In this document: positions 45,672-61,823 of the stretch, piece after piece | How the letters are laid out: the number at the start of each line of letters is the position of its first letter | Numbering within the stretch: position 1 is the first letter of the stretch | The notes under the pieces: model-generated | Seen by the model: only the letters and a program-made list of their open reading frames with translations | Databases searched by the model: none | Told to the model about the DNA's origin: nothing | Made by a program: the position numbers and the translations under genes | NCBI GenBank assembly: GCA_947488435.1 | Contig: CANKZG010000001.1 | Coordinates: forward strand, 2,038,308 to 2,102,307 | Source: an uncultured Flavobacteriaceae bacterium | GTDB taxonomy: Bacteria > Bacteroidota > Bacteroidia > Flavobacteriales > Flavobacteriaceae | Direction: 5' to 3' | Length of the DNA: 64,000 bases

Positions 45672-45700
45672 CAAGATGTGTCATTGTCATGACAATCTTG
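45672..45700 (+). repeat. Hairpin at mobC start: candidate oriT or autoregulatory site
   Basis: CAAGAT-G-TGTCAT (45672-45684) pairs with ATGACA-ATCTTG with loop TGTC: a 12-bp stem with a single bulged G, followed by CTTTTTCT. It overlaps the first codons of the annotated mobC frame. Inverted repeats immediately upstream of mob genes are typical of oriT; a terminator or attenuator is the alternative. Confidence 0.5.
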
Positions 45701-46035
45701 CTTTTTCTCCCGAAGGTCGCAAAAGAAAAAAGAAAAAGGTGAAGCGAGAGTTCATACAGTTTCGTTGCAGCATTTATGAGAAAAAAATGCTCAAGCTAAA
45801 GGCCAAAAAGGCAGGGCTCTCCCTATCCGAATATTGCAGGAGTGCGGCTTTTGAAAACGACATCGTAGAAAGGCTTACTTCGGAGCAACTTGAAAACTAT
45901 TCGATGCTGGTCAAGTACAAGAACAACTTTACAAGGATCGGCAATATGTTCAAAAAGCGGAAGCCTCATTTGGCAAAGGAAGTGCGACAGCTCGCCAATG
46001 AAATAAGAATGCATCTGTACAATTTCAAAAAATGA
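45676..46035 (+). CDS. mobC: MobC-like plasmid mobilization (relaxosome) protein
   Basis: 119 aa as drawn; the true start may be downstream (EGRKRKKKKVKREF; a GTG lies at 45739) because the first codons overlap a strong hairpin. A basic N-terminus is followed by FRCSIYEKKMLKLKAKKAGLSLSEYCRSAAF, a ribbon-helix-helix of MobC type, then NNFTRIGNMFKKRKPHLAKEVRQLANEIR. It should bind oriT and recruit the relaxase. It overlaps the relaxase gene by 4 bp. Confidence 0.85.
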   Translation: MCHCHDNLAFSPEGRKRKKKKVKREFIQFRCSIYEKKMLKLKAKKAGLSLSEYCRSAAFENDIVERLTSEQLENYSMLVKYKNNFTRIGNMFKKRKPHLAKEVRQLANEIRMHLYNFKK

Positions 46036-46898
46036 TAGGAAAGGGAAAATCAATATCGCATACCGGTGCATCTTTGGGCTATGGATGGAACCAAGAGAAG
46101 AATGCAGAGGTTGTCTACAAGCAACATCTAGCAGGGGATAACCCAAGGGAGATTACCGATGAGTTCAAGATAATCCAAGAGCAGAACATAAGGACCAAGA
46201 ACAATACATTGAGTTTTGTACTAAGTCCGACCATTGAAGATGGGAAGGATTTATCTAGCGAACGGGTTCGAGAACTTACCCAAAGATTCATTGCCGAAAT
46301 GAAGCTCACGGAACATCAAGGAGTCGGTTTTGTACATAGGGACAAACAGCATACCCATGTACATGTTTATGTCAATAGGATCAATTTCGATGGTACGGCC
46401 TATAAAGACAACTTTATCGGAAAGAGAAGCCAATACGCAGCCGAAAAAGTTGCCAAGGAAATGGGACTTACCACGGCAAGAGAAGTACAACAGGAAAAAC
46501 TCAGTGAACTGAAAAGGATAAGGAGGGAAATCAAACAGACCCATGAAAAGGTAATGACGGAAAAGAGGCCCAAGGATTTTGACCAGTATATCAAATACAT
46601 GAAACAAAACAGGATAAAGGTCATACCAAGTATCAATAGGCAAAACCAGTTACAGGGGTTTCGCTTTGAATATAAAGGACAAAACCTAAAAGGAAGCGAA
46701 GTACACCGTTCGATGTCGGGAAGCAAATTGGCCATTCAGATTGGTGACAATTCAAGAAAAGGGATTCTCAAAAAAGGGAACACTATTACACTCTTGGGAA
46801 GAACTTTAGGACTCAGTACGAACCTAGCCACAAGTATTGCAAAACGAGTATTGAAAAAGGTCATTAAAAGAACGCTGGACCGAGGTATTGGAATATAA
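46032..46898 (+). CDS. mobA: MobP-type relaxase/mobilization nuclease
   Basis: 288 aa. The metal-binding motif III is HTHVHVYVNR (His107, His109, His111), preceded by GVGFVHRDKQ. The catalytic tyrosine is probably one of those in LGYGWNQEKNAEVVY. FIGKRSQYAAEKVAKEMG and KRPKDFDQYIKYMKQNRIKVIP are typical of Bacteroidota relaxases (PF03432). It is short, with no helicase or primase domain. It nicks oriT and pilots single-stranded DNA, so the element can be mobilised by a co-resident conjugative system. Confidence 0.9.
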   Translation: MIGKGKSISHTGASLGYGWNQEKNAEVVYKQHLAGDNPREITDEFKIIQEQNIRTKNNTLSFVLSPTIEDGKDLSSERVRELTQRFIAEMKLTEHQGVGFVHRDKQHTHVHVYVNRINFDGTAYKDNFIGKRSQYAAEKVAKEMGLTTAREVQQEKLSELKRIRREIKQTHEKVMTEKRPKDFDQYIKYMKQNRIKVIPSINRQNQLQGFRFEYKGQNLKGSEVHRSMSGSKLAIQIGDNSRKGILKKGNTITLLGRTLGLSTNLATSIAKRVLKKVIKRTLDRGIGI

Positions 46899-46915
46899 AC
46901 GTAAAGAATAGAAGC

Positions 46916-47383
46916 ATGAAAAAGATGGAAGAGATGATGGAACTTTTGACAGATGAAATCGAAGGGTTCCATAAATCGATTAATAAGTTGGAAGCCTTGT
47001 CAAAGAATTTCAAGGACTTGAAAATAAAGGCGGACACTTCAAGTATCGAATACCAAATAAAAGACTTTACAAAAGAGCAAAGGAAAGTGATTGAGATATT
47101 CGAAGAGAAAACAACGGGAATAGAGCAAAAGATGAAATCAGCCAGAATAACCCCGAATTGGCTTGCAACCTTGTTCTGTATTACAATAACAATTCAAGTT
47201 CTTTCAATGAGTTATTTTGGCTATCACTTCATCCACTTTGAGAATAGGAACAAAGCGGCTTTCAAAAGAGGTCAAAAACAAAGCAATGAAATTGCAAGAC
47301 GATATTTTGAAGACCATCCTATTATTTATGAAGATTATAAAAAATGGACTAAGAAGAAAGACAGTGTTCCAAATCAAAAGTAG
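46916..47383 (+). CDS. Coiled-coil membrane protein of mob operon
   Basis: 155 aa. Residues 1-75 are a coiled coil (MEEMMELLTDEIEGFHKSINKLEALSKNF). One membrane helix (LATLFCITITIQVLSMSYFGYHF) lies at about 83-105, followed by a basic tail. I cannot name a function; its place as third gene of the mobC-relaxase operon suggests a membrane link between relaxosome and coupling machinery. Confidence 0.75.
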   Translation: MKKMEEMMELLTDEIEGFHKSINKLEALSKNFKDLKIKADTSSIEYQIKDFTKEQRKVIEIFEEKTTGIEQKMKSARITPNWLATLFCITITIQVLSMSYFGYHFIHFENRNKAAFKRGQKQSNEIARRYFEDHPIIYEDYKKWTKKKDSVPNQK

Positions 47384-47387
47384 GTAT

Positions 47388-47481
47388 GCGCCCTATCCTG
47401 TTTTTGCTTAACGCTTATCTACCGGAACACTACAAAAACAGGACAGGAACCTTGCGCAAAGTATTTAGGTAAGATTTGGGG
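47388..47481. repeat. Right inverted repeat of mob module (structured hairpin)
   Basis: GCGCCCTAT, then a perfect 10-bp stem CCTGTTTTTG / CAAAAACAGG (47397-47406, 47433-47442) enclosing a loop with ACGCTTATCTA and ACACTA, then ACAGG, GCGC (47454-47457) and the outer end GGTAAGATTTGGGG (47468-47481). It is the mirror copy of 45414-45507. It could also terminate the mob operon. Confidence 0.8.
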
Positions 47482-47507
47482 TTTGGATTTTATACTATAA
47501 TTTCCAC

Positions 47508-48716
47508 TTAATATTTACCCACTATCAGTTTCATATCATTCATTAATTTCCTGTCAATCACCTTGGCATAAATCTGAGTAGTCTTCAAAGACGAATGCCC
47601 TAGCATTTTACTCACCGATTCTATTGGCACTCCATTTGCCAAAGTCACGGTTGTCGCAAAAGTGTGCCTGGATAAATGAAATGTTAGCTTCTTGTCTATA
47701 TTGCAAATTGTAGCTATTTCTTTTAAGTAAGTATTTAATTTTTGATTACTGATTACAGGAAGTAACTTGTTTTGATTGTTTTCTAAATTAGTACGATACT
47801 TTTTAAGTATTTTCTCCGCTACTGGTAGCAAAGGAACACTGCTTTTTGTATCGGTTTTCGAACGATTGATTTTTATCCATTTTTCACCGTTCATGTTGAG
47901 AACGATGTGGTTGCCGGATAGTTTTTCAACATCTATATAGGACAAACCGGTAAAACAACAGAATACAAAAATATCCCTGACCTGTTCTAATCTTTGTAAT
48001 GGCATTTCGGTATCCATCAAAATTTTTAGTTCTCTTTCATTTAAAATATCACGCTCAACTTTCTTCCATTTTGCCTTCCAATGGTAAAAGGGATCCTTAC
48101 TTATCCAATCGTTGGCATAGCATATGCGCATAATCTTTTTTAGGTTGGTTACATATTTAGTCACCGTATTCTGCCCACAGGCTTTTAAATTCGTTTTTAA
48201 AAAGTGTTCAAAACGGTTGATGAACTTCAAATCAACTTCCTTGACATATATATCCTCGTAGCTATACTCCTTATCGATAAAAGCTTTTAGGTGTCTGAGT
48301 GTTCGGAGATGTCTTTGGTAAGCTCCTGATGAGAATTCCCTGCCGACTATTTCGGATATTTCCTTGTTATGACCTTCATAGATGTTCAATAGTGTTATAT
48401 GTCTAGAGCTTTTTCCTTGAAAAGAGTTTTTTATCATTTGGGACGTGTATGGCCTGCCGTCCCCTTCGTATTTTCCTTGAATTCGATATAATCGGGCACG
48501 CAGATCTTCCAAATATTTGTTCAATTCACGATTGGAAGGCTTGGAGTTTTTGGCACGCCCGGAAGCACAGTTCCAGTCATCAACTTTCACTTTACGTTTT
48601 GCACTTATTTCGGAGCGTTTTCCACTTACCGTAATTCTGAGAAAGATGGGACACAGACCATTTCTATCAGGCATATTTTTCCTGATATAGAATAAAATAG
48701 AGAAGGAAGCATTCAT
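47508..48716 (-). CDS. int: Tyrosine recombinase (IntDOT-like integrase)
   Basis: 402 aa. The N-terminal arm-binding domain (residues 1-105, SFSILFYIRKNMPDRNGLCPIFLRITV) is followed by a SAM-like core-binding domain and a catalytic domain with Lys287, His347-x2-Arg350 (HLSRHTFAT), His374 (MLGHSSLKTT) and nucleophile Tyr383. The first catalytic Arg is replaced by Ser259 (FTGLSYIDVEKL) with an Arg at 247, the arrangement I recall for IntDOT of CTnDOT. It points away from the adjacent tRNA-Arg and should integrate and excise the 33.2-48.95 kb element. Confidence 0.93.
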   Translation of the reverse strand: MNASFSILFYIRKNMPDRNGLCPIFLRITVSGKRSEISAKRKVKVDDWNCASGRAKNSKPSNRELNKYLEDLRARLYRIQGKYEGDGRPYTSQMIKNSFQGKSSRHITLLNIYEGHNKEISEIVGREFSSGAYQRHLRTLRHLKAFIDKEYSYEDIYVKEVDLKFINRFEHFLKTNLKACGQNTVTKYVTNLKKIMRICYANDWISKDPFYHWKAKWKKVERDILNERELKILMDTEMPLQRLEQVRDIFVFCCFTGLSYIDVEKLSGNHIVLNMNGEKWIKINRSKTDTKSSVPLLPVAEKILKKYRTNLENNQNKLLPVISNQKLNTYLKEIATICNIDKKLTFHLSRHTFATTVTLANGVPIESVSKMLGHSSLKTTQIYAKVIDRKLMNDMKLIVGKY

Positions 48717-48822
48717 TTTTTTAAGCTTTTAAGTTGTTCAATTTCAATTAACTTTTTGCTTAAAAAACTGACTATCAATTTTTTAACATATTATTATCGG
48801 TGTTTTTGCGAATATGAAAACT

Positions 48823-48841
48823 ACTCACCGAATTACTCACC
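48823..48841. repeat. Right arm-type integrase site motif
   Basis: ACTCACCGAATTACTCACC, two ACTCACC copies 12 bp apart, about 107 bp upstream of the integrase start and 102 bp from the tRNA 3' end. Twin of 33274-33292. Confidence 0.6.
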
Positions 48842-48886
48842 AGATAGGGTGATTTTATATGATATCAAACGATATTTGTTAAAATG

Positions 48887-48921
48887 AAAAAGTCCGTAAA
48901 TCATTGATTTACAGACTTTTT
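48887..48921 (-). terminator. Terminator downstream of tRNA-Arg, carried by the element
   Basis: Stem AAAAAGTC-C-GTAAATCA / TGATTTAC-A-GACTTTTT. It lies 22 bp beyond the tRNA 3' end, the same spacing as the hairpin outside attL, and appears to replace the displaced original terminator. Confidence 0.8.
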
Positions 48922-48942
48922 GAATTTAATTGATAAATCTCA

Positions 48943-48956
48943 GTGACCTCGGCAGG
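48943..48956. repeat. attR: tRNA-Arg 3' end
   Basis: GTGACCTCGGCAGG, the (reverse-complemented) acceptor and T-stem of tRNA-Arg, repeated at 33200-33213 with one mismatch. Confidence 0.6.
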
Positions 48957-49017
48957 ATTCAAACCTGCAACCTTCTGAGCCGTAATCAGATGCGCTATTC
49001 AGTTGCGCCACGAGGCC
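48944..49017 (-). tRNA. tRNA-Arg (anticodon ACG)
   Basis: On the minus strand a full cloverleaf: acceptor GGCCTCG / CGAGGTC with discriminator A, D-arm with GCGC stem, anticodon stem TCTGA / TCAGA around loop TTACGGC (anticodon ACG, read as ICG), T-arm GCAGG-TTTGAAT-CCTGC. CCA is not encoded. The 3' end serves as attachment site of the neighbouring element and stays intact. Confidence 0.96.
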
Positions 49018-49651: not shown

Positions 49652-50911
49652 TTATGTTGAAGAACGATTTACGATTGGGTTCTGAGGTTTCAGATCCGAT
49701 TTTTTCTTTAATTTCCCCTTGATCCATTTTATGGAAAGTTTAAAAAACAGCAAATAAAACAGCAAGGGCAATGCAAATTGCTCTAATAACTCGGTAATAC
49801 TAAATAAGGCGAAACCTTGATGTGTTATTTCCTTTATTTCATTCCATACATTTATTGGAAAATATAGAATGGAAGAGGGATTAGATAAAACAATAAGTCC
49901 TAAGAAAAGGAATGCAAAAGATATGGCTAGCAGTCCATAACTCAATAAGAAATGATTTTTTTGATATGGTGTCCCTTTATAAATTGCTTTTGCGGCATGT
50001 AGTACATATTGTATGGCATCTTTCTGCAAATTGGGCATATTAATGGCATCGGACAATACCCAATAGCCGTCTCTGCGCAAAAAGGGATTTAAATTAGCGA
50101 TAAATCGAAATAAAATTATCGTGTTTAACCAAATAAAAAAAGGATTATAGGTTGCAAAATAAAGAACTAAAAAAAGTATACCTACCAGCGTTTCGAAATA
50201 TAATCCACCGAGGTTCACCATCATGCGTCTTTTTTTAGAAAGCAACCATGTTTCCGAAACATCACAATAAAAAACGGGATACATTAAATAAAAACCAACT
50301 CCAATTTCTCCAGCTTTGCGTTTGGAAAATGCCAAGGCTGATGTATGTCCTATTTCATGGAATAGGCAGATCACGAAACCAAATAGAAAGATGAATAGTC
50401 CATGGGTTTTGGTTATCAATAAGGTGTTAAAAATATCTTGACTAATTAAAGTTTGTAGTGTGGTGCTAAAAAGAACAATGAATAGAGCTCCAAAAACATA
50501 AAAAAAAGCGACAGGTTGCGTAAAGAAGTTTTTAAATATCTGACTTAAAATTGCTACCAGCGACTTCGGAATCATTGGAAACCGAAGATTGAGATAGTTA
50601 GCTCCTTTTCTTGCAATAGCTTCATGGTTATTATCAATTATTCCTAAAGGATATAGTTTTTCATAGAGAAGGTCGTGCACCGTCTTTTCATCAATTAGAT
50701 CTGTGGCAAGGTCAGTATTTAATTCAGTGGTGATTTCTCCGATTGTTTTTTTTCCATCCAACTTTTTTAGAAGCGCATGTGTAAGCTTATTAATCCGAAT
50801 TTGGTGTTTTAGTTTCGTCTGTTGCACCACAAACTGATCTGAAGAAATTGTTACCAGTTCAACATCAGCATTAAGAAAAGGAGTTATATGATTAGGATCT
50901 AACATTTTCAT
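49652..50911 (-). CDS. PqqD-like domain plus M50 (site-2-protease-type) membrane metallopeptidase
   Basis: 419 aa. Residues 1-95 resemble a PqqD/RiPP-recognition winged fold (QFVVQQTKLKHQIRINKLTHALLKKLDGKKTIGEITTEL). About eight membrane helices follow, with zinc motif HEIGH (185-189, CLFHEIGHTSAL) and the third ligand region NPFLRRDGYW (Asp281). This layout recalls YydH-type 'peptide zinc metalloproteases' found with modified-peptide genes. Its start overlaps the end of the upstream cyclase-like gene by 20 bp (ATG at 50905 also possible). Predicted job: binding and cleaving the precursor peptide leader in the membrane. This is inference. Confidence 0.8.
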   Translation of the reverse strand: MKMLDPNHITPFLNADVELVTISSDQFVVQQTKLKHQIRINKLTHALLKKLDGKKTIGEITTELNTDLATDLIDEKTVHDLLYEKLYPLGIIDNNHEAIARKGANYLNLRFPMIPKSLVAILSQIFKNFFTQPVAFFYVFGALFIVLFSTTLQTLISQDIFNTLLITKTHGLFIFLFGFVICLFHEIGHTSALAFSKRKAGEIGVGFYLMYPVFYCDVSETWLLSKKRRMMVNLGGLYFETLVGILFLVLYFATYNPFFIWLNTIILFRFIANLNPFLRRDGYWVLSDAINMPNLQKDAIQYVLHAAKAIYKGTPYQKNHFLLSYGLLAISFAFLFLGLIVLSNPSSILYFPINVWNEIKEITHQGFALFSITELLEQFALPLLFYLLFFKLSIKWIKGKLKKKSDLKPQNPIVNRSST

Positions 50912-52889
50912 ATGTATGAATTGCGTTTAATGCTGTGGAAGTACTGAACAATCGATTAAATTCTACCGCTCTCACTTTTATTCCCATCCGACGTATAGGC
51001 CATTCTTGCAGATGTGTTTTTGTGGTAGGTTTAAAATTAAATTCAGGAAGCCGCATGGCATGGGTAGCTTCCCACGATCCATCGTCGAATTGGTTTAGTA
51101 GTAACCAATCAATCGACTTTTTTATACTTTCCTTAAAGTTGGTAAAAAGGGTTTCAGATGAACATAATGCCGTAACCGCAAGACCGGTATAAAAAGCACT
51201 TTTATTTTCTTTGGTATCTCCATACGCCCCATTCTTTTGTTGCTGTGCTATAATGTTGTTTGCCACAGGCATTAAAAGCGTATTGAGTCGTTCATCATTG
51301 AGCAGCACAATAGCTTTTAAAAGATAAGAATACGTATAAATTGAGCTAGTCCACCAATAGGCAGTAAGTGGTCCTTCTTTGTGGGCATCTAAAAAATAAG
51401 TAATAAGCGCTTCCAACGATGTATCTACTGGGTAATCATCTCGGATGAGTGCAAAAGTATACAGTGCGGCTGCACTTACACAATGTTGTGGTTCTTCCCA
51501 AGTACCATAGTCGGTACGTCCTATTTTCATCAACATTTCCAATTCATTTCTGTCTTCTTGAATATAGGTAGAAAAACCTCCATTTTTATGAATGTATTTT
51601 AACCAATCCTTTAGGGGAGCGTTCATCGTATTTCCCAACAGATGTGAGGCTGTCATAAAAAAGCTTAGCGAGTCTCCATCGCGCGGCGATATCTCATTGT
51701 AAGAAATTCTGTCCTTTTTACGTTGTTCCAAAAAGCTTAGAATCTTATGCTTTACCTTTTTGGTTGCCCACGTTTCATCCATAGCATGTATTTGACTATA
51801 TATGAATGATGTAGCCCAGGTAGAGCTAGCACCTGCACTATTTAAATATTCCTCCCAATACCCTTCTGGTTGTAGCTTATTCATCACAAAACGTACGCCG
51901 GAAGCAATAGAACTTTCATAAGAGGCATCCATATACGATTGGTTTTTTTTAGTTGCTGAATGGGATAAAGTAGCAGTAATTTCTTTTAAGTATGAGGATT
52001 GCTTTAATTGCAATGTTTTACAAATCTCCTTGAATTTACGAATTGTTGCAATCCACAGGGCGTCTGATGCCAGTTGCTTTTCTGCTAAGTGTATGGCTTT
52101 ATCAAAATGGGTTATTGCTTCACTCAAGATGTCTTCTGCTACCTCAAGCACATATAGGTATTTCTCTAAACTCTCAACGGATAATTTGTCAAAATCGATT
52201 CCCGCTTTAATACAGGAAATCTTTAATTTTTTAAGGGCGTAATTGGCTTGATTATTGACAAAGTCCTCCTGCACATCTATGATATCATCATAGAATTGCC
52301 TTCCAATAGAAAAATGACGATGCGATTGCAACAGTGTTTCTGTTTTTTGATCAGATGATAGTGTCGGATTGACCTTCTCTTCTAAAAGCGAAAGGGAATC
52401 AATCGCAACTTTCCCGAATGCCGCTTTTTGATCTGAGATTTCATGATATTCAGAGGTATTTAAATCAGCAAAGTGTTTTTTCTCTTTTTTTTGGGCCCAA
52501 AGATACTCTCCTCTTCGTAAGTTCCAGAACTTCCAGAATTTTGAATCTATTGGAAAGAGCGTGGTTAAAATTTTAATTGCTTCCTCTTGGCACAACAAGC
52601 TGAGTTGTAAAAACTGTGATCGCTCCTGGGGTTTAACTTGGTTGTCGGTGATTTTATCGAGATAATTAATGGAAGAAAAAGTAAGGTATCCCGCAATACT
52701 TAGTAAGCTTATTTTTTTGGTATCTGTAATTGTATAGCAACTTTCAAAAAGATACGGATAAATCAAATAAACATGACTTTCTGTATGTTTAGGGTTTACC
52801 TTTAATAATTCCTTGAATTGACCCGGAACGGCGAGTTTAGAAATATAGGTATTATAACTTGTGATTTGTGCTGCTATACGTGCTTTCAT
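50892..52889 (-). CDS. Two-domain protein: class I isoprenoid-synthase-like plus squalene-cyclase/prenyltransferase-repeat
   Basis: 665 aa, no signal peptide. Residues about 40-300 follow the all-helical isoprenyl diphosphate synthase pattern: a degenerate first Asp-rich motif (Asp78-x3-Asp82 in NYLDKITDN), SDQKAAFGKVAID, and a canonical second motif in FSIGRQFYDDIIDVQED (Asp201, Asp202, Asp205). From about 325 it has alpha/alpha-toroid repeats (LQPEGYWEEY, WLLLNQFDDGSWEATHAMRLP) with RDGDS at 403-407 where class II cyclases carry DxDD. It lies 72 bp after a short peptide gene. ComQ, which prenylates Trp of ComX, uses this same class I fold, so peptide prenylation is my leading guess; a terpene synthase is the alternative. 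Confidence 0.75.
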   Translation of the reverse strand: MKARIAAQITSYNTYISKLAVPGQFKELLKVNPKHTESHVYLIYPYLFESCYTITDTKKISLLSIAGYLTFSSINYLDKITDNQVKPQERSQFLQLSLLCQEEAIKILTTLFPIDSKFWKFWNLRRGEYLWAQKKEKKHFADLNTSEYHEISDQKAAFGKVAIDSLSLLEEKVNPTLSSDQKTETLLQSHRHFSIGRQFYDDIIDVQEDFVNNQANYALKKLKISCIKAGIDFDKLSVESLEKYLYVLEVAEDILSEAITHFDKAIHLAEKQLASDALWIATIRKFKEICKTLQLKQSSYLKEITATLSHSATKKNQSYMDASYESSIASGVRFVMNKLQPEGYWEEYLNSAGASSTWATSFIYSQIHAMDETWATKKVKHKILSFLEQRKKDRISYNEISPRDGDSLSFFMTASHLLGNTMNAPLKDWLKYIHKNGGFSTYIQEDRNELEMLMKIGRTDYGTWEEPQHCVSAAALYTFALIRDDYPVDTSLEALITYFLDAHKEGPLTAYWWTSSIYTYSYLLKAIVLLNDERLNTLLMPVANNIIAQQQKNGAYGDTKENKSAFYTGLAVTALCSSETLFTNFKESIKKSIDWLLLNQFDDGSWEATHAMRLPEFNFKPTTKTHLQEWPIRRMGIKVRAVEFNRLFSTSTALNAIHTYENVRS

Positions 52890-52917
52890 AATCTAAAGTA
52901 TTGGTGTCTTTTAAAAT

Positions 52918-52949
52918 GTAGAAAGTGATGCAACCACATCACTTTCTAC
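52918..52949 (-). terminator. Hairpin between peptide gene and cyclase gene (terminator or attenuator)
   Basis: Perfect 13-bp stem GTAGAAAGTGATG / CATCACTTTCTAC with a 6-nt loop, followed on the minus strand by ATTTTAAAAG. It lies 11 bp after the 52-aa peptide stop and 28 bp before the biosynthetic gene, so partial read-through would make much more peptide mRNA than enzyme mRNA. Confidence 0.75.
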
Positions 52950-52960
52950 ATAAACTAATT

Positions 52961-53119
52961 TTATCCTCCCCATTCGTAAGTGATGGTTGCCTCTCCATAA
53001 GCTCCTCGACCTTCAGATTCGTATCCTCCAGATGCAGAAGCTGACCAGCCTCCAAATTCTAAACGCTCTTGTAATTCTTCCACTTGAAAAAGCTCCGCTT
53101 TCTTTTCAATGTTTTTCAT
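52961..53119 (-). CDS. Short precursor-like peptide (52 aa)
   Basis: MKNIEKKAELFQVEELQERL is an amphipathic acidic leader-like helix. Then FGGW, and a Gly/Ser/Tyr-rich tail with aromatic residues at fixed spacing (Trp25, Tyr33, Tyr41, Tyr48, Trp50) ending EWGG. Gly23-Gly24 directly before Trp25 is a plausible cleavage site. It has no Cys and is not lanthipeptide-like. It is flanked by strong hairpins on both sides, as expected of a highly expressed peptide gene, and precedes the isoprenoid-synthase/cyclase and M50 genes. I infer a RiPP precursor; no family is recognised. Confidence 0.7.
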   Translation of the reverse strand: MKNIEKKAELFQVEELQERLEFGGWSASASGGYESEGRGAYGEATITYEWGG

Positions 53120-53215
53120 AAAATAAAGTATTAGTTGTAATGCCTACTCTAAATAGCTTTTCGGCTTCCGCTAAATTCTACTTAAAACTAGAAGTTATCC
53201 AGGGCTTAAAAAAAA

Positions 53216-53251
53216 CAAGCCATCCCATATTTATAAATATGGGATGGCTTG
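53216..53251 (-). terminator. 36-bp perfect palindrome with T-tract: terminator of 46-aa peptide gene
   Basis: The 18-bp half CAAGCCATCCCATATTTA is followed directly by its exact reverse complement, without loop. On the minus strand it runs into nine consecutive T. It lies 55 bp downstream of the 46-aa peptide stop. Confidence 0.85.
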
Positions 53252-53305
53252 AACGTAAATTAGAATGGATTATAAGGTTACCTAAAGCTCTTTAAAATTT
53301 GGATT

Positions 53306-53446
53306 TCAGGGACCTGTTTTTGATTTACCAGTTCTCCAACCAATTTGATCGTTTTTTCGCTTACCTCCTCTAATACCTTCGATATTGGCTAGATTTGTGA
53401 TTCTTGACTTTTTTAATTGAAGCAAGGTGGATTTTTTCTTCTTCAT
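53306..53446 (-). CDS. Short precursor-like peptide with GG leader (46 aa)
   Basis: MKKKKSTLLQLKKSRITNLA, then NIEGIRGG, has the form of a double-glycine leader as used by C39-type exporters in Bacteroidota peptides. The C-terminal core KRKNDQIGWRTGKSKTGP is basic and contains one Trp (38). No Cys. It is followed by a very strong terminator and preceded (minus strand) by the TPR-AraC regulator gene. I infer a second peptide product of the same system; no peptidase-containing ABC transporter lies in the window. Confidence 0.65.
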   Translation of the reverse strand: MKKKKSTLLQLKKSRITNLANIEGIRGGKRKNDQIGWRTGKSKTGP

Positions 53447-53546
53447 GGGATGTTTTTAATGGTTAATTAATGTACTTGTCTAAATGTAATCAAAGTAAAA
53501 AGGCTTTTATAAATCAGATACCCTATTTTTATAAATTTAGGGCGAT

Positions 53547-55235
53547 TTAACTGCTTTTTTCAATACTATTAATACTTTTAATAAAATTGGAAGGGAATAA
53601 ATTGGTCTTCATTTTAAAATATTTGGCGAAGGAATCGGCACTTTTATAACCTAGTTCCAAAGCCATAGATTTTACGGAGTAGGCTCTAAATTTTTTGTCG
53701 TTTTTAATTTTGTCGATAGCATAATTAATACGAAGATCATTAATGTAGGCGTTGAACTTTTTTTTCTTGTAAGTATTTATAATTTTAGACAGATAGGTAG
53801 TATTGGTATTTAACTGTTGCGAAACAGTATATAGGTTGCAATCTTTATTTAGGTAAAAGAAATCCAATTCTAATTCGTGCAAACGGTTCATGATTTCTTC
53901 AATTTTACGGTCTTTAATAATTATGGGTGTCTTAAGCGTATTTGCACTTTTTTGCTCATTTTCGAATTGATCTAAAAGTTGATTTGTTATGTTCTTATCT
54001 TTGAAATGCTTTTTACGCACCACCTTAATGTATACCAATAAAACGATTACCAATAATACAATCAAAGAGAAACTGATCGCAATATAGGTCTGTTGTTTGG
54101 AGGTTAGTTTGGAGAAATTGCTCAATTCGTTTTCCAAACCTTGAATATCGTTCTCATAAATTTTTTCAATAAACTTTAATTTCTGGTCCTGATTGTCTGT
54201 GGTTTCCGTAACATACTTTTCATAGTACACTATTGAATTTTCTGCATCTCCAGTTTCTTTAAAAATAATAGCCAATTGTTTACAGGTGTCTGCATAAAAA
54301 AGCGGTTTTGAAGCCGAATTCTGATCTATAATTTCAATTGCTTGGAGATAGTATGTCGTGCTTGCTTTAGGTTTTTGTTGTTGTTGATAACACTGCCCTA
54401 TGCGGTAATAGATTTCTGCCTTAATCAACTCATTGCCTAGTGTATTAAATTTTTTTTCCGCTTCAAATAAGTTTTCCAATGCGATATTATAATTGGTATT
54501 ATAATAGTGTACGATACCTATAAATTTCAAAAAATTACCCGTAGTTTCTAAATCATTGCTGGTTAGGCTATTTTGTAGACCGAGTTCATGATAAAATAGT
54601 GCTGAATCTAATTTTTGTTCTAATAAATAGACTTCCCCAATAGACATTAGAGTTTGTGAAATGAGGTTTGCTTGTATCACCTTATTTTTCTCCGGATTTT
54701 CTTGATGAAAAGCTAAATTTTCCTTGTATAACTCAATAGCTTCTTCGTATTTTCCAGATCGTTGTTTCAAGAGGGCAATGTTAGATCTAATGATCTCAAT
54801 GTAAGCTTTGAATTGATTTGTTTTTGAAATGTCAAGTGCTTTTAAATAATTGGTTAATGCCTGTTCGTCTTCGTTTAAATTTAAATAAGCATTCCCCATG
54901 ACGGTTAGCAGTTCCACATGGTATTCCGTATAATTGATTCCCCTGGCAATATTAAGGCCGTTGTTATAATACTGTAAGGACGCTCTATGTTCCCCCATGA
55001 TCCCCTTGATTTTACCTAGCTGATGGTAGGCTTCGCATACTACTTTCTGATCAGAATTTTTAATCCCAAAGTCCAGTAGCGCTTGAGCAAGTTCAAATGC
55101 CTTTTCAGGGTTGCTATATCTGATGTCAACAATAGCACTTTTCAGCTCCTCGGGAGAGGCATATACTTCCTGTGCAACGAGATTTGAAGTGAAAAATAAT
55201 AGGAAGAGGAAACTAAAAATCGTTTGATGCAACAT
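53547..55235 (-). CDS. TPR-containing membrane regulator with C-terminal AraC helix-turn-helix
   Basis: 562 aa. A signal peptide (FSFLFLLFFTSNLVAQ) is followed by about seven TPR repeats over residues 25-370 (KAFELAQALLDFG, RASLQYYNNGLNIARG, EQALTNYLKALDISK, PKASTTYYLQAIEIID). One membrane helix lies near 383-406 (YIAISFSLIVLLVIVLLVYI), and a C-terminal AraC domain near 460-560 (TYLSKIINTYKKKKFNAYINDLRINYAI; MALELGYKSADSFAKYFKMKTNLFPSNF). Such one-component transmembrane regulators sense a periplasmic signal and act directly on DNA. Position before the peptide genes suggests it controls them, possibly in response to the peptide. Confidence 0.85.
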   Translation of the reverse strand: MLHQTIFSFLFLLFFTSNLVAQEVYASPEELKSAIVDIRYSNPEKAFELAQALLDFGIKNSDQKVVCEAYHQLGKIKGIMGEHRASLQYYNNGLNIARGINYTEYHVELLTVMGNAYLNLNEDEQALTNYLKALDISKTNQFKAYIEIIRSNIALLKQRSGKYEEAIELYKENLAFHQENPEKNKVIQANLISQTLMSIGEVYLLEQKLDSALFYHELGLQNSLTSNDLETTGNFLKFIGIVHYYNTNYNIALENLFEAEKKFNTLGNELIKAEIYYRIGQCYQQQQKPKASTTYYLQAIEIIDQNSASKPLFYADTCKQLAIIFKETGDAENSIVYYEKYVTETTDNQDQKLKFIEKIYENDIQGLENELSNFSKLTSKQQTYIAISFSLIVLLVIVLLVYIKVVRKKHFKDKNITNQLLDQFENEQKSANTLKTPIIIKDRKIEEIMNRLHELELDFFYLNKDCNLYTVSQQLNTNTTYLSKIINTYKKKKFNAYINDLRINYAIDKIKNDKKFRAYSVKSMALELGYKSADSFAKYFKMKTNLFPSNFIKSINSIEKSS

Positions 55236-55647
55236 GTTGGAGCTAATATCGGGGGATGTAAGGTACTAAATGATATTTAAATTGATTTAAAATCCTAAAG
55301 ATAAAACTATTAAATAGGGAGTATGTCGTAATAGTTATTTTAAAATTAGGATAGAGCATTGGCGGTGACATAATATCGCCATCCAATAATAGCCAACTGT
55401 AGTTTTGACGCTTTGGATAAATCCAATCTTTTTTTAGAATAGGAAGGAAATATGGCCTTATTAATTCGTGCTAGAAGAAGAAAAAACACCTGTTTCATGC
55501 TGCAGTTTTAACAAATATAAGGAACTTACAGAAGTTCCCTAATTGTGTAGGTGTCTTCACTCATTGAAGGCAATGGTTTACGTAGTCCTCGTTTTTAAAA
55601 TAGATTCCTGGTGGTAGTTTCGAAGTAACATCTTAAAAATAATAGAT
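55236..55647. other. 412-bp divergent intergenic region
   Basis: Shared upstream region of the TPR-AraC regulator (minus) and the secreted cyclase-fold protein (plus). It has A/T-rich stretches, and a TAGTTTCG about 30 bp before the plus-strand start is a weak -7 candidate. No gene or clear palindrome is seen. Confidence 0.5.
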
Positions 55648-56967
55648 ATGAAAACGAAGTTGATAGCAACAGGAACATTACTAGTACTCTTAGCAATAGT
55701 ATGGGGAATAACTCCCTCAGCAAAATTAGCGCCTACAGATCGTGATCTGGCGTTAGAGCGAAACTTAATTCCTGAAAATGGTTGTGTTTTTATGACCATG
55801 GCAGGAGAACAATCTTCTGAAAATTTTAATAAGTACAAAACAGATGATAATATTATCCTAGCAGTAAATGATGGATTGCAATGGATGGCGAAAGCTCAAT
55901 TGCCGAATGGGGGTTATGGTGCAGGATCGCATAGCGCACAGCATATTCGTGATCCTCATGCAGTAAAGGCAGACCCCGCAACTTCAGCCATGGTAGGGAT
56001 GGCTTTTTTAAGAAGTGGTACCACTTTAGAAGAGGGGATATATGCCAAACAACTAAAAAGTGTACTGAATTACCTTCTTGAAACAGTAGAAAGTACTCAA
56101 ACGGATGATCCTTATATTACTGAGGTTCGCAACACCCAGATTCAATCAAAACTAGGAGAAAATATTGATGTAGTGCTTACAGCACAATTCTTGACTAATA
56201 TTTTGGATCGCAATTTTAAAGCAACAGATCGAAAGCGTGTTGCACGATGTTTAGATATTTGCGTTGCTCGTATCCAAAAAGCAACAGATGAAACCGGGAA
56301 ACAACAGGGTGCGGGCTGGGCCGGTGTTTTGCAAAGTGGTTTAGCCAATAGCGCATTGGAGTCTGCGAAAGTAGTAGGTGCAACGGTAGATGAAGTGGTG
56401 ATGGATCGATCTCGTAACTACCAGAAAGATAACTACAACCAAAATACTGGCGCTGTAGATGCTAAAGACGGTGCAGGTGTATTATTGTATGCAGTTAGTG
56501 GAAGTGTCCGTGCAAGTGCTAAAGAAGCACGAAAAGCGAAAGAAAGTGTGGCAAAGGCAAAGCAAGAAGGAAAACTAGAAAAAAACGCTAAAGTCACTAT
56601 TCAAAATTTACAAGAGATTGGCTTCTCAGAAGAAGAAGCAGTATCCTATACTACTTCATATGAGATTTATGAATCTGCTAAACAAACGGCACAACAAGAT
56701 GAGGTTATGGATGGTTTTGGAAATAATGGAGGTGAAGAGTTTTTAAGCTTTTTACAGACAGGAGAATCCTTAGTGGTGAATCAAGATTCGGATTGGAAAA
56801 AATGGTATGATGATATGAGTGGCCGAATTGTAAAGATCCAAAATAAAGACGGTAGTTGGAACGGTCATCACTGCATTACCAGTCCTGTGTTCTGTACCGC
56901 AACCAGTTTGCTGCTATTAACAGTAGAAAATGACATTCAGTTTTTACAGAAGGTAGGGGAAGAATAG
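55648..56967 (+). CDS. Secreted prenyltransferase/squalene-cyclase-fold protein
   Basis: 439 aa. An N-terminal signal/anchor (IATGTLLVLLAIVWGITPSA) precedes alpha/alpha-toroid repeats: ILAVNDGLQWMAKAQLPNGGYGAGS at about 72-96 and IVKIQNKDGSWNGHHCITSPVFCTATSLLLLTVE at the C-terminus, both with the Q-x-DG-(S/G)-(W/Y) signature. A Lys/Ala-rich coiled segment at about 290-325 separates them. No DxDD motif is seen, so it may be a binding rather than catalytic protein, or use the toroid as a protease-inhibitor/complement-like scaffold. It is divergent from the regulator of the peptide locus and may act on or bind its product outside the cell; function is not established. Confidence 0.7.
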   Translation: MKTKLIATGTLLVLLAIVWGITPSAKLAPTDRDLALERNLIPENGCVFMTMAGEQSSENFNKYKTDDNIILAVNDGLQWMAKAQLPNGGYGAGSHSAQHIRDPHAVKADPATSAMVGMAFLRSGTTLEEGIYAKQLKSVLNYLLETVESTQTDDPYITEVRNTQIQSKLGENIDVVLTAQFLTNILDRNFKATDRKRVARCLDICVARIQKATDETGKQQGAGWAGVLQSGLANSALESAKVVGATVDEVVMDRSRNYQKDNYNQNTGAVDAKDGAGVLLYAVSGSVRASAKEARKAKESVAKAKQEGKLEKNAKVTIQNLQEIGFSEEEAVSYTTSYEIYESAKQTAQQDEVMDGFGNNGGEEFLSFLQTGESLVVNQDSDWKKWYDDMSGRIVKIQNKDGSWNGHHCITSPVFCTATSLLLLTVENDIQFLQKVGEE

Positions 56968-58432: not shown

Positions 58433-58520
58433 CGGATTCGGTAGAATCCTAATCTTAATTAATTCGGCTTATATTTCAACTTCTTGGTGGTTTTAGCTAT
58501 CTTACCTATCCCTTATAAAT

Positions 58521-58525
58521 GGAGG
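58521..58525 (+). promoter_or_regulatory. Shine-Dalgarno GGAGG deciding the start at 58529
   Basis: GGAGG with only 3 bp to ATG 58529. It is unusual here because most genes in the window lack a clear Shine-Dalgarno site; it favours this start over upstream in-frame codons. Confidence 0.5.
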
Positions 58526-58528
58526 TTA

Positions 58529-60136
58529 ATGCAGTTCATAACGAAAATTTCTCTTTTTGGGTTTTTAGCATTTGCAATGCTTCAAACGAATCTTGTTTTT
58601 GGTCAACAGCGATCGTTTGTTGAAGGAAAATTATTGGACTTAAAAACAAAAGGGCCTATCCCATTCGCAACGATTCGTATAAAAAATAAATCTAAAGGAG
58701 TTATTTCCAATTTTGATGGAGGATTTAAAATCCCTATCGAATTTCAAAAAATAGGCGATACTTTGGAAATATCTTCCCTCGGGTATTTTTCTAAAACGAT
58801 CGTAATGTCTGACCTCCTTGTGGATACTGTTAATCTTATCTATTTAAAGGAGGCTATTGAGGAGCTAAGTGAAGTAGTAGTTTCAGCTTCAAAAAATCGT
58901 GCAAAACGCTCGGCTAAAGAAATTGTTCGTTTAGCTCTTGAGAAAATACCCCAAAACTTCCCCTTCAAGCCGTTTTCATATGTAGGTTATTACAGAGATT
59001 ATCAATTAAAGGAAGGAACATATCTCAATTTAAACGAAGCAGTATTAGCGGTATTTGATAAGGGGTTTGGTTTCGAGGATCTTAAAAGTACGAAGGTGAG
59101 AATCTACAGGTATAAAGAAAATCCAGATTTTTTAAGAGATGCCTTAGCGGCTAAACCATACGATTATATAAATCGTAGCAAAATTATAACACATGCTACG
59201 CTAGATGGTCAAGGTGGAAATGAATATACGATATTGAGGCTTCATAATGCGATTCGTAATTACAATATAAATACTTATTCTTTTGTGAATCGTTTGGATC
59301 AGGATTTTATTAAAAATCATAAACTGAGTCTTCAAGAAGATACATATTTAAACGATAATCCAATTTATGTAATAAAGGCATCCTATGTACAAGATAATGC
59401 AACGGTAATTGGGAAAATGTACATTAATAAAGGCAACTTTGCATTGCATAAAATGGAATATGCGGTATATGAAAAAGGAAGTACTTCCAAATACCTAGAA
59501 GAACAACGTGCAAAACTTAACCTCTCTGAAAAGCCTAAAAAAAAATTGGGAAGACTACTTTACGAAATAATCGTAGAATATCAAGCTGTTGACGATAAAA
59601 TGTACCTTAACTACATATCTTTTAATAATGCGTTTGAGGTTCAAGAACCTCCAAAATTTAAACCCATAAGCGCAAAAACAAATATTGAGAAAAAGTGTTT
59701 TGAACTTGTCTTTAATAACCCTCCCTTAGCGGAAGACGCGATTAAAAAAGGGAAATATAAACTGTATTACCAAGAAAGAAAATTAAGATTGGATAGGGTA
59801 GAAGTTAAAAAGAATAAAGTACTATTATACCCATCAAACCAAAAAGTAATTTTCGACACCCAATTGATTCAACTTCTGAAAGAACGAACTACCAAAGGCG
59901 TTGCTATTGAAGTTAAGGATGTCAGGGATATATATGGTAATATGGTACATAAATCTGAAGCTGTTTCTCATAATCAATTTAGAGAGTTTTTTGTACAAGA
60001 ACTAAAATTAAATGATCATGGACCACAGGATCATTTATATATGATTAAGACTAGACCAATCTATAGTGGACAACCTATTGTAGCTCCGAAAAATACAACA
60101 GACTATTGGATGAATACACCGCTTAAACGAGAGTAA
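58529..60136 (+). CDS. Carboxypeptidase-regulatory-like domain protein (paralogue 1)
   Basis: 535 aa from ATG 58529. A signal peptide (FGFLAFAMLQTNLVFGQ) is followed by a CarboxypepD_reg-like Ig-fold domain (GPIPFATIRIKNKSKGVISNFDGGFKIP ... LEISSLGYFSKTIVM). A large unrecognised part with strands and the conserved segments SYVGYYRDYQLK, FDKGFGFEDLKS and YLNYISFNNAFEV completes it. This layout is common for Bacteroidota envelope proteins of unknown role. It is followed 25 bp later by a paralogue of the same length. Confidence 0.8.
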   Translation: MQFITKISLFGFLAFAMLQTNLVFGQQRSFVEGKLLDLKTKGPIPFATIRIKNKSKGVISNFDGGFKIPIEFQKIGDTLEISSLGYFSKTIVMSDLLVDTVNLIYLKEAIEELSEVVVSASKNRAKRSAKEIVRLALEKIPQNFPFKPFSYVGYYRDYQLKEGTYLNLNEAVLAVFDKGFGFEDLKSTKVRIYRYKENPDFLRDALAAKPYDYINRSKIITHATLDGQGGNEYTILRLHNAIRNYNINTYSFVNRLDQDFIKNHKLSLQEDTYLNDNPIYVIKASYVQDNATVIGKMYINKGNFALHKMEYAVYEKGSTSKYLEEQRAKLNLSEKPKKKLGRLLYEIIVEYQAVDDKMYLNYISFNNAFEVQEPPKFKPISAKTNIEKKCFELVFNNPPLAEDAIKKGKYKLYYQERKLRLDRVEVKKNKVLLYPSNQKVIFDTQLIQLLKERTTKGVAIEVKDVRDIYGNMVHKSEAVSHNQFREFFVQELKLNDHGPQDHLYMIKTRPIYSGQPIVAPKNTTDYWMNTPLKRE

Positions 60137-60161
60137 CATATAGGAGTTAATTAGAGTTGAA

Positions 60162-61823
60162 ATGAGAACAAACACATTTAGAGTTGAATTTCTTGCAATA
60201 ATTCAACAAAAGATAATAACGAGAGGTTTGCTACTATTTATTTTGTTGGGCTGGTCTCCTAGTTTTTCGCAACAGGAAGAGTTTATAACTGGAAAAATAA
60301 TTGATGGCGAAACGAGGAGCCCCGTCCCTTTTGCTACTATATATTTAAAGAATAAAGCAAAAGGGGTTGTATCTAATCAAGATGGTGGATTTAAAATTCC
60401 AATCCAGTTTAGGAGTAGTGGGGATACACTGGTAATATCTTCTCTAGGATATAAAACAAAACAAGTATTGCTTAAAACCTTGATAAATAATAAAATAAAC
60501 ACCATAGTATTAGCAAATCAATTAGAAAATTTGGATGAAGTTGTAGTAAAAGCTTCCCAAGGCAAAATCAGAAAAAAAACGGCCGAAGAAATCGTTACAT
60601 TGGCGATTAAGAATATCCGAAGAAACTATCCTATTAAACCTTATTCCTATGTGGGCTATTATCGGGATTATCAGCTTAAAAATGAAAACTATTTAAATCT
60701 TAATGAAGGTATTTTAGAAGTATTTGATCGAGGATTTAATTCTATTGATATAAACTCTAGTAAAACAAGAATCTATCGGTTTGAGAAGAACCTTAGTTTT
60801 CCTAGAGATGCAATAGCCGCAAAACCATATGACTATAGGAAAGGAACTAAGATTGTAGTGAATGCAACCCTTCAAAATGAGGGTGGAAATGAATTTATGT
60901 TGTTGCGTATTCATGATGCGATACGAAACTTTAAAATAAATACATTCTCTTTTGTATATACTTTGGAACGTGACTTTAAAGAACAGCATTATTTCTTGAG
61001 AAAACCCAATACATATTTAAATGATGATTTGCTTTATGTTATAGAATTTTTGAGAAAAGATAAACTTTCAGAAGTTGTCGGTAGCTTATATATAGATAGC
61101 ACCACTTATGCTATTCATAAAATGGAGTATGCTGTTTATCAAAATGAAGAATATACAGATTTTGAAAAAGAACGTCGCAGACAGGTTACCGTAACAACGG
61201 CAACTTCGGTTCCTAAGCGAGAAAAACTAATTTTTGATGTAAACGTATCGTACAATAAAGTAAATAACTTAATGTACCTCAATTACATTTCATTCAATAA
61301 TAGCTTTCAAATAAAAGATCCACCAAAATTTTATGTAGAAACCTTTGTAGTTAATGAAGGTAAGCAATGCTACGAAGTTCATTTTACGGAAAGCCCTGCA
61401 CCGAATAAAGCACTTAAAAGTTCGAAATATGCCATTACAAGGGATGGCGAAAAAATAAAAATAGATCGTGTTGAAATTAAAGGAAAAATTGCCTTTTTAT
61501 ACCCTAAAAATGTGGATGATCTTTTCAATTCAAGGAAGTTAGCCTTGGATAAGCGAATCGACTATAGTAACTATAAGGTGGCAGTAAAAAGCATGCAAGC
61601 CATTAGTGGAAATAAATTAAATGAGGAAAGTTCTTCCTTTGTGAGTCAATTTAGGGAATTCTTTGTGCAAGAAGTTAATCGCAGTAAATTGCCCCCTCAG
61701 GATAATTTATACATGATAAAAACGCTTCCGATATATAAAAACCAACCCATAGCTACTCCTGCTAACTTGGAAGATTATTGGATTAATACCCCACTTATAA
61801 AAAATAAGGAAGTTTATAATTAG
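60162..61823 (+). CDS. Carboxypeptidase-regulatory-like domain protein (paralogue 2)
   Basis: 553 aa, aligned along its entire length with the preceding gene (SPVPFATIYLKNKAKGVVSNQDGGFKIP, SYVGYYRDYQLKNENYLNLNEG, YLNYISFNNSFQIKDPPKF, and the same C-terminal YWINTPL). The N-terminus carries a hydrophobic signal (GLLLFILLGWSPSFSQ), preceded by about 25 extra residues, so the start may lie slightly downstream. Tandem duplication; probably one transcript. Function unknown. Confidence 0.8.
   Translation: MRTNTFRVEFLAIIQQKIITRGLLLFILLGWSPSFSQQEEFITGKIIDGETRSPVPFATIYLKNKAKGVVSNQDGGFKIPIQFRSSGDTLVISSLGYKTKQVLLKTLINNKINTIVLANQLENLDEVVVKASQGKIRKKTAEEIVTLAIKNIRRNYPIKPYSYVGYYRDYQLKNENYLNLNEGILEVFDRGFNSIDINSSKTRIYRFEKNLSFPRDAIAAKPYDYRKGTKIVVNATLQNEGGNEFMLLRIHDAIRNFKINTFSFVYTLERDFKEQHYFLRKPNTYLNDDLLYVIEFLRKDKLSEVVGSLYIDSTTYAIHKMEYAVYQNEEYTDFEKERRRQVTVTTATSVPKREKLIFDVNVSYNKVNNLMYLNYISFNNSFQIKDPPKFYVETFVVNEGKQCYEVHFTESPAPNKALKSSKYAITRDGEKIKIDRVEIKGKIAFLYPKNVDDLFNSRKLALDKRIDYSNYKVAVKSMQAISGNKLNEESSSFVSQFREFFVQEVNRSKLPPQDNLYMIKTLPIYKNQPIATPANLEDYWINTPLIKNKEVYN

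Follow-up and report, generated by a model that had tools for sequence, protein, structure and literature searches.

A candidate flavobacterial gene cluster for a Trp-prenylated peptide with a cyclized prenyl chain

Gene organization of the cluster and its relatives

The window analyzed here is a 64,000-nt stretch of contig CANKZG010000001.1 (assembly GCA_947488435.1) from an uncultured Flavobacteriaceae bacterium, and coordinates given without a locus name are positions within it. On its minus strand, a cluster spanning 49652-53119 probably specifies a ribosomally synthesized and post-translationally modified peptide (RiPP) in which a Trp residue is prenylated and the prenyl chain subsequently cyclized. 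Transcription runs through a TPR-AraC regulator, two short peptides (A and B), a 665-aa fusion protein, and a 419-aa PqqD-M50 protein (Table 1); every gene listed in a first-pass annotation of the region lies where it had been placed. That annotation also noted a strong hairpin after each short gene, and both are perfect inverted repeats. There is a 20-nt overlap between the fusion and M50 genes, and the homologous open reading frames (ORFs) overlap too in three related loci (L012, L014, and L015).

Relatives, designated by L numbers, were sought in 299 genomes of the family, 395 of the order, and 395 of the phylum (overlapping samples), plus one contig collection and plasmids. With the window's own genome counted, matches occur in 10/299, 9/395, and 10/395 genomes, respectively; two of the family matches (L006 and L007) match the C domain described below only and are of another type. 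The contig collection yielded L011, from a Flammeovirgaceae metagenome-assembled genome (44% identity), and the plasmid search yielded L052, from Hymenobacter. The window and 24 relatives make up the set of 25 loci with a P domain (P loci) that is used throughout.

A putative two-domain maturase

The fusion protein, the presumed maturase, consists of an N-terminal P domain and a C-terminal C domain. Its P domain has the intact DDIID (D201-D205) and the degenerate first Asp motif that were reported from the first reading; the latter reads DKITD, with its first and last Asp kept. An alignment of 23 P domains shows no variation at D78, D82, W119, D201, D202, D205, or D209, and 22 of its rows have Q198, the exception being L040; D78 and D82 are also kept in L011. 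Fourteen of the rows are fused to C (including L048, in which the C frame is broken), L039 encodes P and C in adjacent ORFs, and eight have P alone. L020, a near copy of L019, was omitted from the alignment, and the P-only loci therefore number nine while the rows number eight. The best P tree requires four changes to account for the P-only state, two of them imposed by well-supported branches.

Searched against the PDB, a profile of the 23 P domains retrieves polyprenyl synthases (best E value, 9.1e-6), and Pfam polyprenyl_synt is matched by 11 of the 23 members (best, 5.9e-5), the window's P domain not being among them. These similarities support a predicted place for the P domain in the isoprenoid-synthase superfamily, among the trans-isoprenyl diphosphate synthase (trans-IDS)-like proteins.

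Residues 324-659 align lengthwise with single-domain class II cyclases, including 6ij1 and MstE. As a single sequence the C half matches 6ij1 at an E value of 2.4e-12, and residues 324-657 match MstE chain 6sbf at 1.4e-9; a profile of 17 C domains reaches 2.7e-46 with 8paj and 1e-44 with MstE. MstE (PDB 6sbb), 8paj, and 6ij1 have the C-domain family and a DxD(S/T) motif in common with the window, but all three are single-domain proteins; MstE acts on a small prenylated aromatic substrate and is not known to carry a fused prenyltransferase. The motif reads DGDS at residues 404-407 of the window's protein, DADT in MstE chain 6sbf, and DADS in 6ij1, and D404 and D406 are invariant in all 17 C rows. 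By family, the evidence supports a putative MstE-type class II terpene cyclase.

The precursor peptide and its core Trp

Peptide B carries the leader motif FQVEELQERLEFG, the family form of which is F-x-[V/I]-E-E-L-E-x-R-x-E, and a core that contains Trp25 and no Cys; the peptide also has Tyr residues and a second Trp. Among the first five precursors aligned, M1, F11, E14, E15, L16, R19, E21, G23, W25, and G39 are invariant. With a scoring matrix trained on four other loci (L012-L015) and applied to 3623 ORFs, the leader of peptide B scores 45.5 and the best ORF outside the precursor set scores 30.2. An absence of small peptides beside homologues had been named in the first-pass annotation as grounds for giving up a peptide substrate; a short leader-type peptide is present in 23 of the 25 P loci, seven of them with weak scores. 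Sixteen loci, four of which are the training set, score at least 34.5, above every background ORF. L019, L020, and L050 (30.5-30.8) lie at the edge of the background, and L041-L044 (23.8-29.5) are inseparable from it by score and are counted as precursor loci because the motif is shared by short ORFs at most 446 nt from the P gene. The two loci with no leader peptide are L011, in which the contig begins inside the gene, and L018, in which the P ORF is just 142 aa long.

Of 390 phylum genomes searched with a precursor profile, 10 gave a match, and nine of these are P positive; as those nine supplied rows to the profile, this is a test of specificity only, indicating that few genomes outside the P-positive set carry the leader and not how detectable unseen precursors are. 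P-positive genome G861 is not matched, its leader being among the divergent ones, and peptide B is the profile's only match in the genome from which the window comes. Leaders also occur where the stretch read contains no P gene, in one extra genome (G947; L072) and at a second place in G997 (L073). The L072 precursor (E value, 1.3e-6) has no M50 gene or other recognized partner in 16 kb, and that of L073, a weak match (0.003), lies beside M50 and radical SAM/SPASM genes in a genome that has P locus L051 elsewhere. The cores of these two P-less precursors (hand-picked, n = 2) contain no Trp, Tyr, or Phe.

In 13 of the 14 P+C loci, a Trp is among the first five residues of the core, and Trp25 is thus the best candidate acceptor in peptide B. 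When cores are permuted, early Trp occurs in a mean of 3.9 loci and none of 20000 permutations reaches the observed value, a figure that is not a strict probability because the P+C loci are related. Beyond the early Trp, these cores share little. The sole P+C locus lacking it, L040, is the one whose P domain lacks Gln198, and it also has a radical SAM maturase. Early Trp is found in four of the nine P-only loci (L013, L019, L020, and L052).

A probable leader peptidase

HEIGH is present in the M50 protein, as the first-pass annotation stated, and H185, E186, G188, and H189 are invariant in all eight M50 rows. The protein matches the daptide protease family NF041824 (daptide_HExxH; E value, 1.5e-32; 113.2 bits, below the curated cutoff of 300) and the YydH/LiaK family NF058609 (2.1e-17; 63.6 bits, below the curated cutoff of 225), and its PqqD match reaches only 0.022. 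An M50 gene is in the cluster in 23 of the 25 P loci, the exceptions being L018 and L048, the latter with its broken cyclase frame and a contig end nearby. From these family similarities, the PqqD-M50 protein is probably the leader peptidase. The gene set, the domain families, the conserved motifs, the conserved leader, and the link between leader and P gene were all computed directly.

Comparison with known systems

Two enzymes that carry out the proposed chemistry have already been published. In ChrPC, a trans-IDS-like P domain puts C10-C20 chains on an internal Trp and a C domain cyclizes them (PMC13290415, a 2026 review citing Hubrich et al. 2024, Chem 10:3224; PMC12715784 cites the same work as PMC13290415). 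In NctPC, an ABBA-fold P domain is fused to an MstE-like C domain, and Trp prenylation is followed by ring closure (PMC13290415). The first-pass statement, made for Bacteroidota, that no such system had been described is not supported: ChrPC is in print and joins P and C in one protein that puts a prenyl chain on an internal Trp and cyclizes it. As described in that source, ChrPC shares with the window the two domains in one protein, the superfamily of the P domain, a RiPP context, and an internal Trp. The window has these features of a ChrPC-type system: a trans-IDS-like P domain, an MstE-type C domain in the same protein, the Gln and the first Asp of the second aspartate-rich motif (SARM), and an adjacent precursor with an internal Trp. 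ChrPC was compared by description and not by sequence, and the window's placement therefore rests on features. NctPC, as described, combines Trp prenylation with a fused cyclizing C domain, as proposed for the window, but its P domain is of a different fold. What is added here is a recognizable cluster family with its own leader peptide and protease; among the matches listed, there is no published system of this family that joins leader, M50 protease, and prenylation.

Single-domain prenyltransferases are more distant. ComQ of Bacillus prenylates a Trp of the peptide ComX, the first and fifth Asp of its first aspartate-rich motif (FARM) are essential, and it has a pseudo-SARM, NDxxx or GDxxx (PMC5331326). 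The window's P domain shares with ComQ (IPR033965) the isoprenoid-synthase superfamily, the proposed prenylation of a peptide Trp, and both FARM Asp residues (D78 and D82), but has DDIID in place of a pseudo-SARM, with D201, D202, and D205 invariant in 23/23 rows. ComQ needs no obvious leader motif, and the passages of that source describe no fused C domain or dedicated M50 protease. PalQ of Paenibacillus, encoded in a RiPP cluster, also belongs to this superfamily and prenylates Trp, but its target in PalX is a C-terminal Trp, the leader is of the NHLP type (PMC10853753), and a C domain goes unmentioned in the cited passages. Among proteases, the daptide protein MpaP combines a RiPP recognition element (RRE)/PqqD-like part with a membrane peptidase that removes RiPP leaders (PMC10036551), an arrangement like that of the window's M50 protein. 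The MpaP, YydH, and LiaK proteases have HExxH in common with it, but the tailoring genes described with them are others.

Alternative explanations

We favor, with a probability of about 0.78, the reading of the window as a RiPP cluster of the ChrPC kind, for a Trp-prenylated peptide with a subsequently cyclized prenyl chain. Several observations weigh against it. Taken alone, the window's P domain has no Pfam or NCBIfam match to the isoprenoid-synthase superfamily, and only the family profile makes the connection. Gln198 occurs in ordinary polyprenyl synthases too, so that it is not diagnostic and does not prove Trp binding, and the AlphaFold model of the fusion (two sequences) has a mean pLDDT of 40.5. 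Five of the nine P-only loci have Phe-Tyr or Cys-Tyr after the leader instead of Trp and all five keep Gln198, and thus Trp is not required for P in general. It could be that P prenylates another residue (Tyr, Cys, or several) and that the conserved Trp serves for recognition at the leader's end. P-only loci L041-L044 keep P and M50 with FTFY or FTCY at this place, L050 has CYC, Cys occurs in 8 of 14 P+C cores and 6 of 9 P-only cores, and peptide B has Tyr and a second Trp as well. We consider this unlikely, however, given that a count of W, Y, C, F, H, S, T, and K shows Trp to be the one residue type shared by all 14 P+C cores (7 have Tyr, 8 have Cys, and 11 have Ser). Cys is absent from the window's core, the L014 core has a single Trp and neither Tyr nor Cys, and characterized trans-IDS-like enzymes use Trp only, according to PMC13290415.

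A linear prenyl-Trp, with the C domain inactive or a mere binder of peptide or chain, would fit the Ser in place of the third Asp of DxDD, the Gly rather than Ala at residue 405, and the P-only relatives that do without C. It seems quite unlikely all the same: the third Asp is likewise missing from MstE chain 6sbf and from 6ij1, and a title cited in PMC13290415 identifies MstE as an active cyclase. In addition, the other two Asp residues are invariant across the C rows, and L011 carries the same DGDS. Very improbable is a free terpene synthase, comprising a class I chain maker and a class II cyclase, with the peptide genes as biochemically irrelevant neighbors. Both domains do come from terpene enzyme families, and P keeps two Asp motifs as diphosphate synthases do; yet a precursor and an M50 gene each accompany P in 23/25 loci, and five P loci (L040, L046, L047, L049, and L051) additionally have radical SAM/SPASM peptide maturases. 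No carotenoid or hopanoid gene was recognized by eye among the neighbors listed, no family search having been made for them.

Neighboring genes

Two leader-like peptides had been put forward as substrates, and this is supported for peptide B and not for peptide A, whose leader differs from that of B and for which none of the 24 other P loci offers a counterpart. Peptide A resembles the class I lanthipeptide leader family NF038153 (11.7 bits; E value, 0.23; below the curated cutoff of 22) and its similarity to a Cys/Thr-rich peptide from another genome (0.005) is confined to the leader; a second copy was sought in its own genome and none was found. We find no support for it as a second maturase substrate, and it is possibly unrelated to the maturase.

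The TPR-AraC regulator is as first described, with matches to TPR_12 (1e-21) and HTH_18 (1.9e-10). Among the 24 other P loci, L037 alone has a similar gene (1.6e-23, in the AraC part), which lies upstream of six precursors; we tentatively include the regulator in the cluster, where it may sense the peptide as first suggested.

The divergent toroid protein, which the first-pass annotation took as part of the set, is rejected as a cluster member and is a backbone gene conserved at family level. A search of 198 other family genomes finds it in 15, conserved at 64-70%; none of the 15 is among the nine other P/C-positive family genomes, although not all nine were necessarily in that sample. In four of the relatives read over 18 kb around the toroid gene, tblastn found none of the cluster's proteins alongside, and the 24 other P loci contain no toroid relative. 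The exchanger and glutamine-synthetase-like genes that follow the toroid gene in the window are also near its relative in L081. What remains of the earlier proposal of a prenylated, perhaps cyclized peptide is the P domain, the MstE-type C domain, the leader protease, and the Trp precursor; the use of both peptides, the membership of the toroid protein, and the absence of a described system are not supported.

CarboxypepD_reg-like genes, in two blast groups, occur no more than 5.5 kb from P in 10 of 24 loci, including P-only L050 (Table 1), with the Pfam scores of L012 and L014 just under the cutoff. The window's two such genes are only at 58484-61823, past backbone genes, and are therefore excluded from the system. 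Window positions 45676-49017 hold mobilization-like and tyrosine-integrase-like genes (recognized by eye) beside a tRNA-Arg (48943-49017), an apparent integrative element directly left of the cluster.

Table 1. Features of the cluster, its surroundings, and related loci (L numbers)
Feature	Position	Strand	Description
Precursor peptide B	52961-53119	-	52 aa; leader residues 1-23, core from ~G24
Maturase (P-C fusion)	50892-52889	-	665 aa; P ~40-318, C ~319-665
P-domain motifs	residues ~40-318	-	D78xxxD82, Q198, DDIID 201-205, D209
PqqD-M50 protein, probable leader peptidase	49652-50911	-	419 aa; PqqD-like N terminus and M50 (HEIGH) membrane metalloprotease
Hairpin 3' of peptide B	52916-52951	-	Perfect inverted repeat, 15-nt arms
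Peptide A	53306-53446	-	46 aa; lanthipeptide-like GG leader, short core without Cys
Hairpin 3' of peptide A	53216-53251	-	Perfect inverted repeat, 18-nt arms, T8 tail, terminator-like
TPR-AraC regulator	53547-55235	-	562 aa; membrane segment judged by eye
Toroid protein	55648-56967	+	439 aa; signal-like N terminus (by eye); divergent
CarboxypepD_reg-like protein	L012:10423-11610		Secreted
CarboxypepD_reg-like protein	L014:778-1956		Secreted
CarboxypepD_reg-like protein	L015:8533-9645		Secreted
CarboxypepD_reg-like protein	L038:9135-12134		Secreted
CarboxypepD_reg-like protein	L039:6559-7707		Secreted
CarboxypepD_reg-like protein	L045:8372-9544		Secreted
CarboxypepD_reg-like protein	L046:8855-9691		Secreted
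CarboxypepD_reg-like protein	L047:8604-9434		Secreted
CarboxypepD_reg-like protein	L048:9507-10196		Secreted
CarboxypepD_reg-like protein	L050:965-3253		Secreted

Variants among related loci

The relatives vary in precursors and enzymes. In L037 (6319-7364), one P-C fusion is preceded by six consecutive precursor genes with one leader and differing cores, a naturally occurring library of substrates. Precursors of a P-only clade (L041:6919-7507, L042:8441-9095, L043:7034-7201, and L044:6754-6933) have leaders ending EERKEFTFY or EERKEFTCY and Cys/Pro/Gly-rich cores, with no Trp at the leader end; from these peptides, it is possible that the enzymes of L041-L044 prenylate Tyr or Cys. L073 (G997:C102, 659-4996) has a similar leader (peptide at 2309-2452), an M50 gene, a radical SAM/SPASM maturase, an acyltransferase-like gene (by eye), and no P gene, and the leader-M50 chassis may accordingly work with other tailoring enzymes.

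In L016 (6418-10826) and L017 (6503-9096), an MstE-like cyclase stands alone, next to a separate polyprenyl-synthase/DUF5685-like gene, together with a conserved 117-123 aa protein with a Trp near its C terminus and a TPR protein; this other type could represent one more system that prenylates peptides or proteins. Near the P-M50 pair in L015 (4390-5380), L019 (8757-9475), and L020 (7187-7905), there is a C39-like peptidase protein (by eye), with short GG-leader peptides and MacB-type ABC genes.

Proposed pathway and implications

In the pathway that we propose, peptide B would be made with its leader FQVEELQERLEFG, and D78 and D82 of the P domain, with Mg2+, would ionize a C10-C20 prenyl diphosphate, the chain of which would be transferred to Trp25. 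D406 of the DxDS motif in the C domain would then protonate the chain end and the rings would close, as with MstE. The PqqD-like part of the M50 protease would bind the leader, with a cut near G23-G24. We infer the acceptor residue, the chain length, ring formation, the cleavage site, the order of the steps, and any TPR-AraC regulation from the precedents of ComQ, PalQ, ChrPC, NctPC, and the daptides, and from MstE.

A broader and rather doubtful proposal, which we offer tentatively, is that the leader and M50 system feeds interchangeable enzymes: P+C acting on Trp, P alone on Trp, P alone on Tyr or adjacent Cys, and radical SAM/SPASM enzymes with or without P. The enzymes of L041-L044, with FTFY or FTCY, would then be the first isoprenoid-synthase-type enzymes to prenylate a non-Trp residue of a peptide.

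Fused prenylating and cyclizing peptide maturases are represented by two characterized examples in the portions of the literature cited here. The family described here supplies a leader motif, a dedicated protease, precursors from 23 loci, and an acceptor prediction. Its split, P-only, and radical-SAM-combined natural variants, together with the L037 array, make substrate rules and the engineering of polycyclic lipopeptides directly testable.

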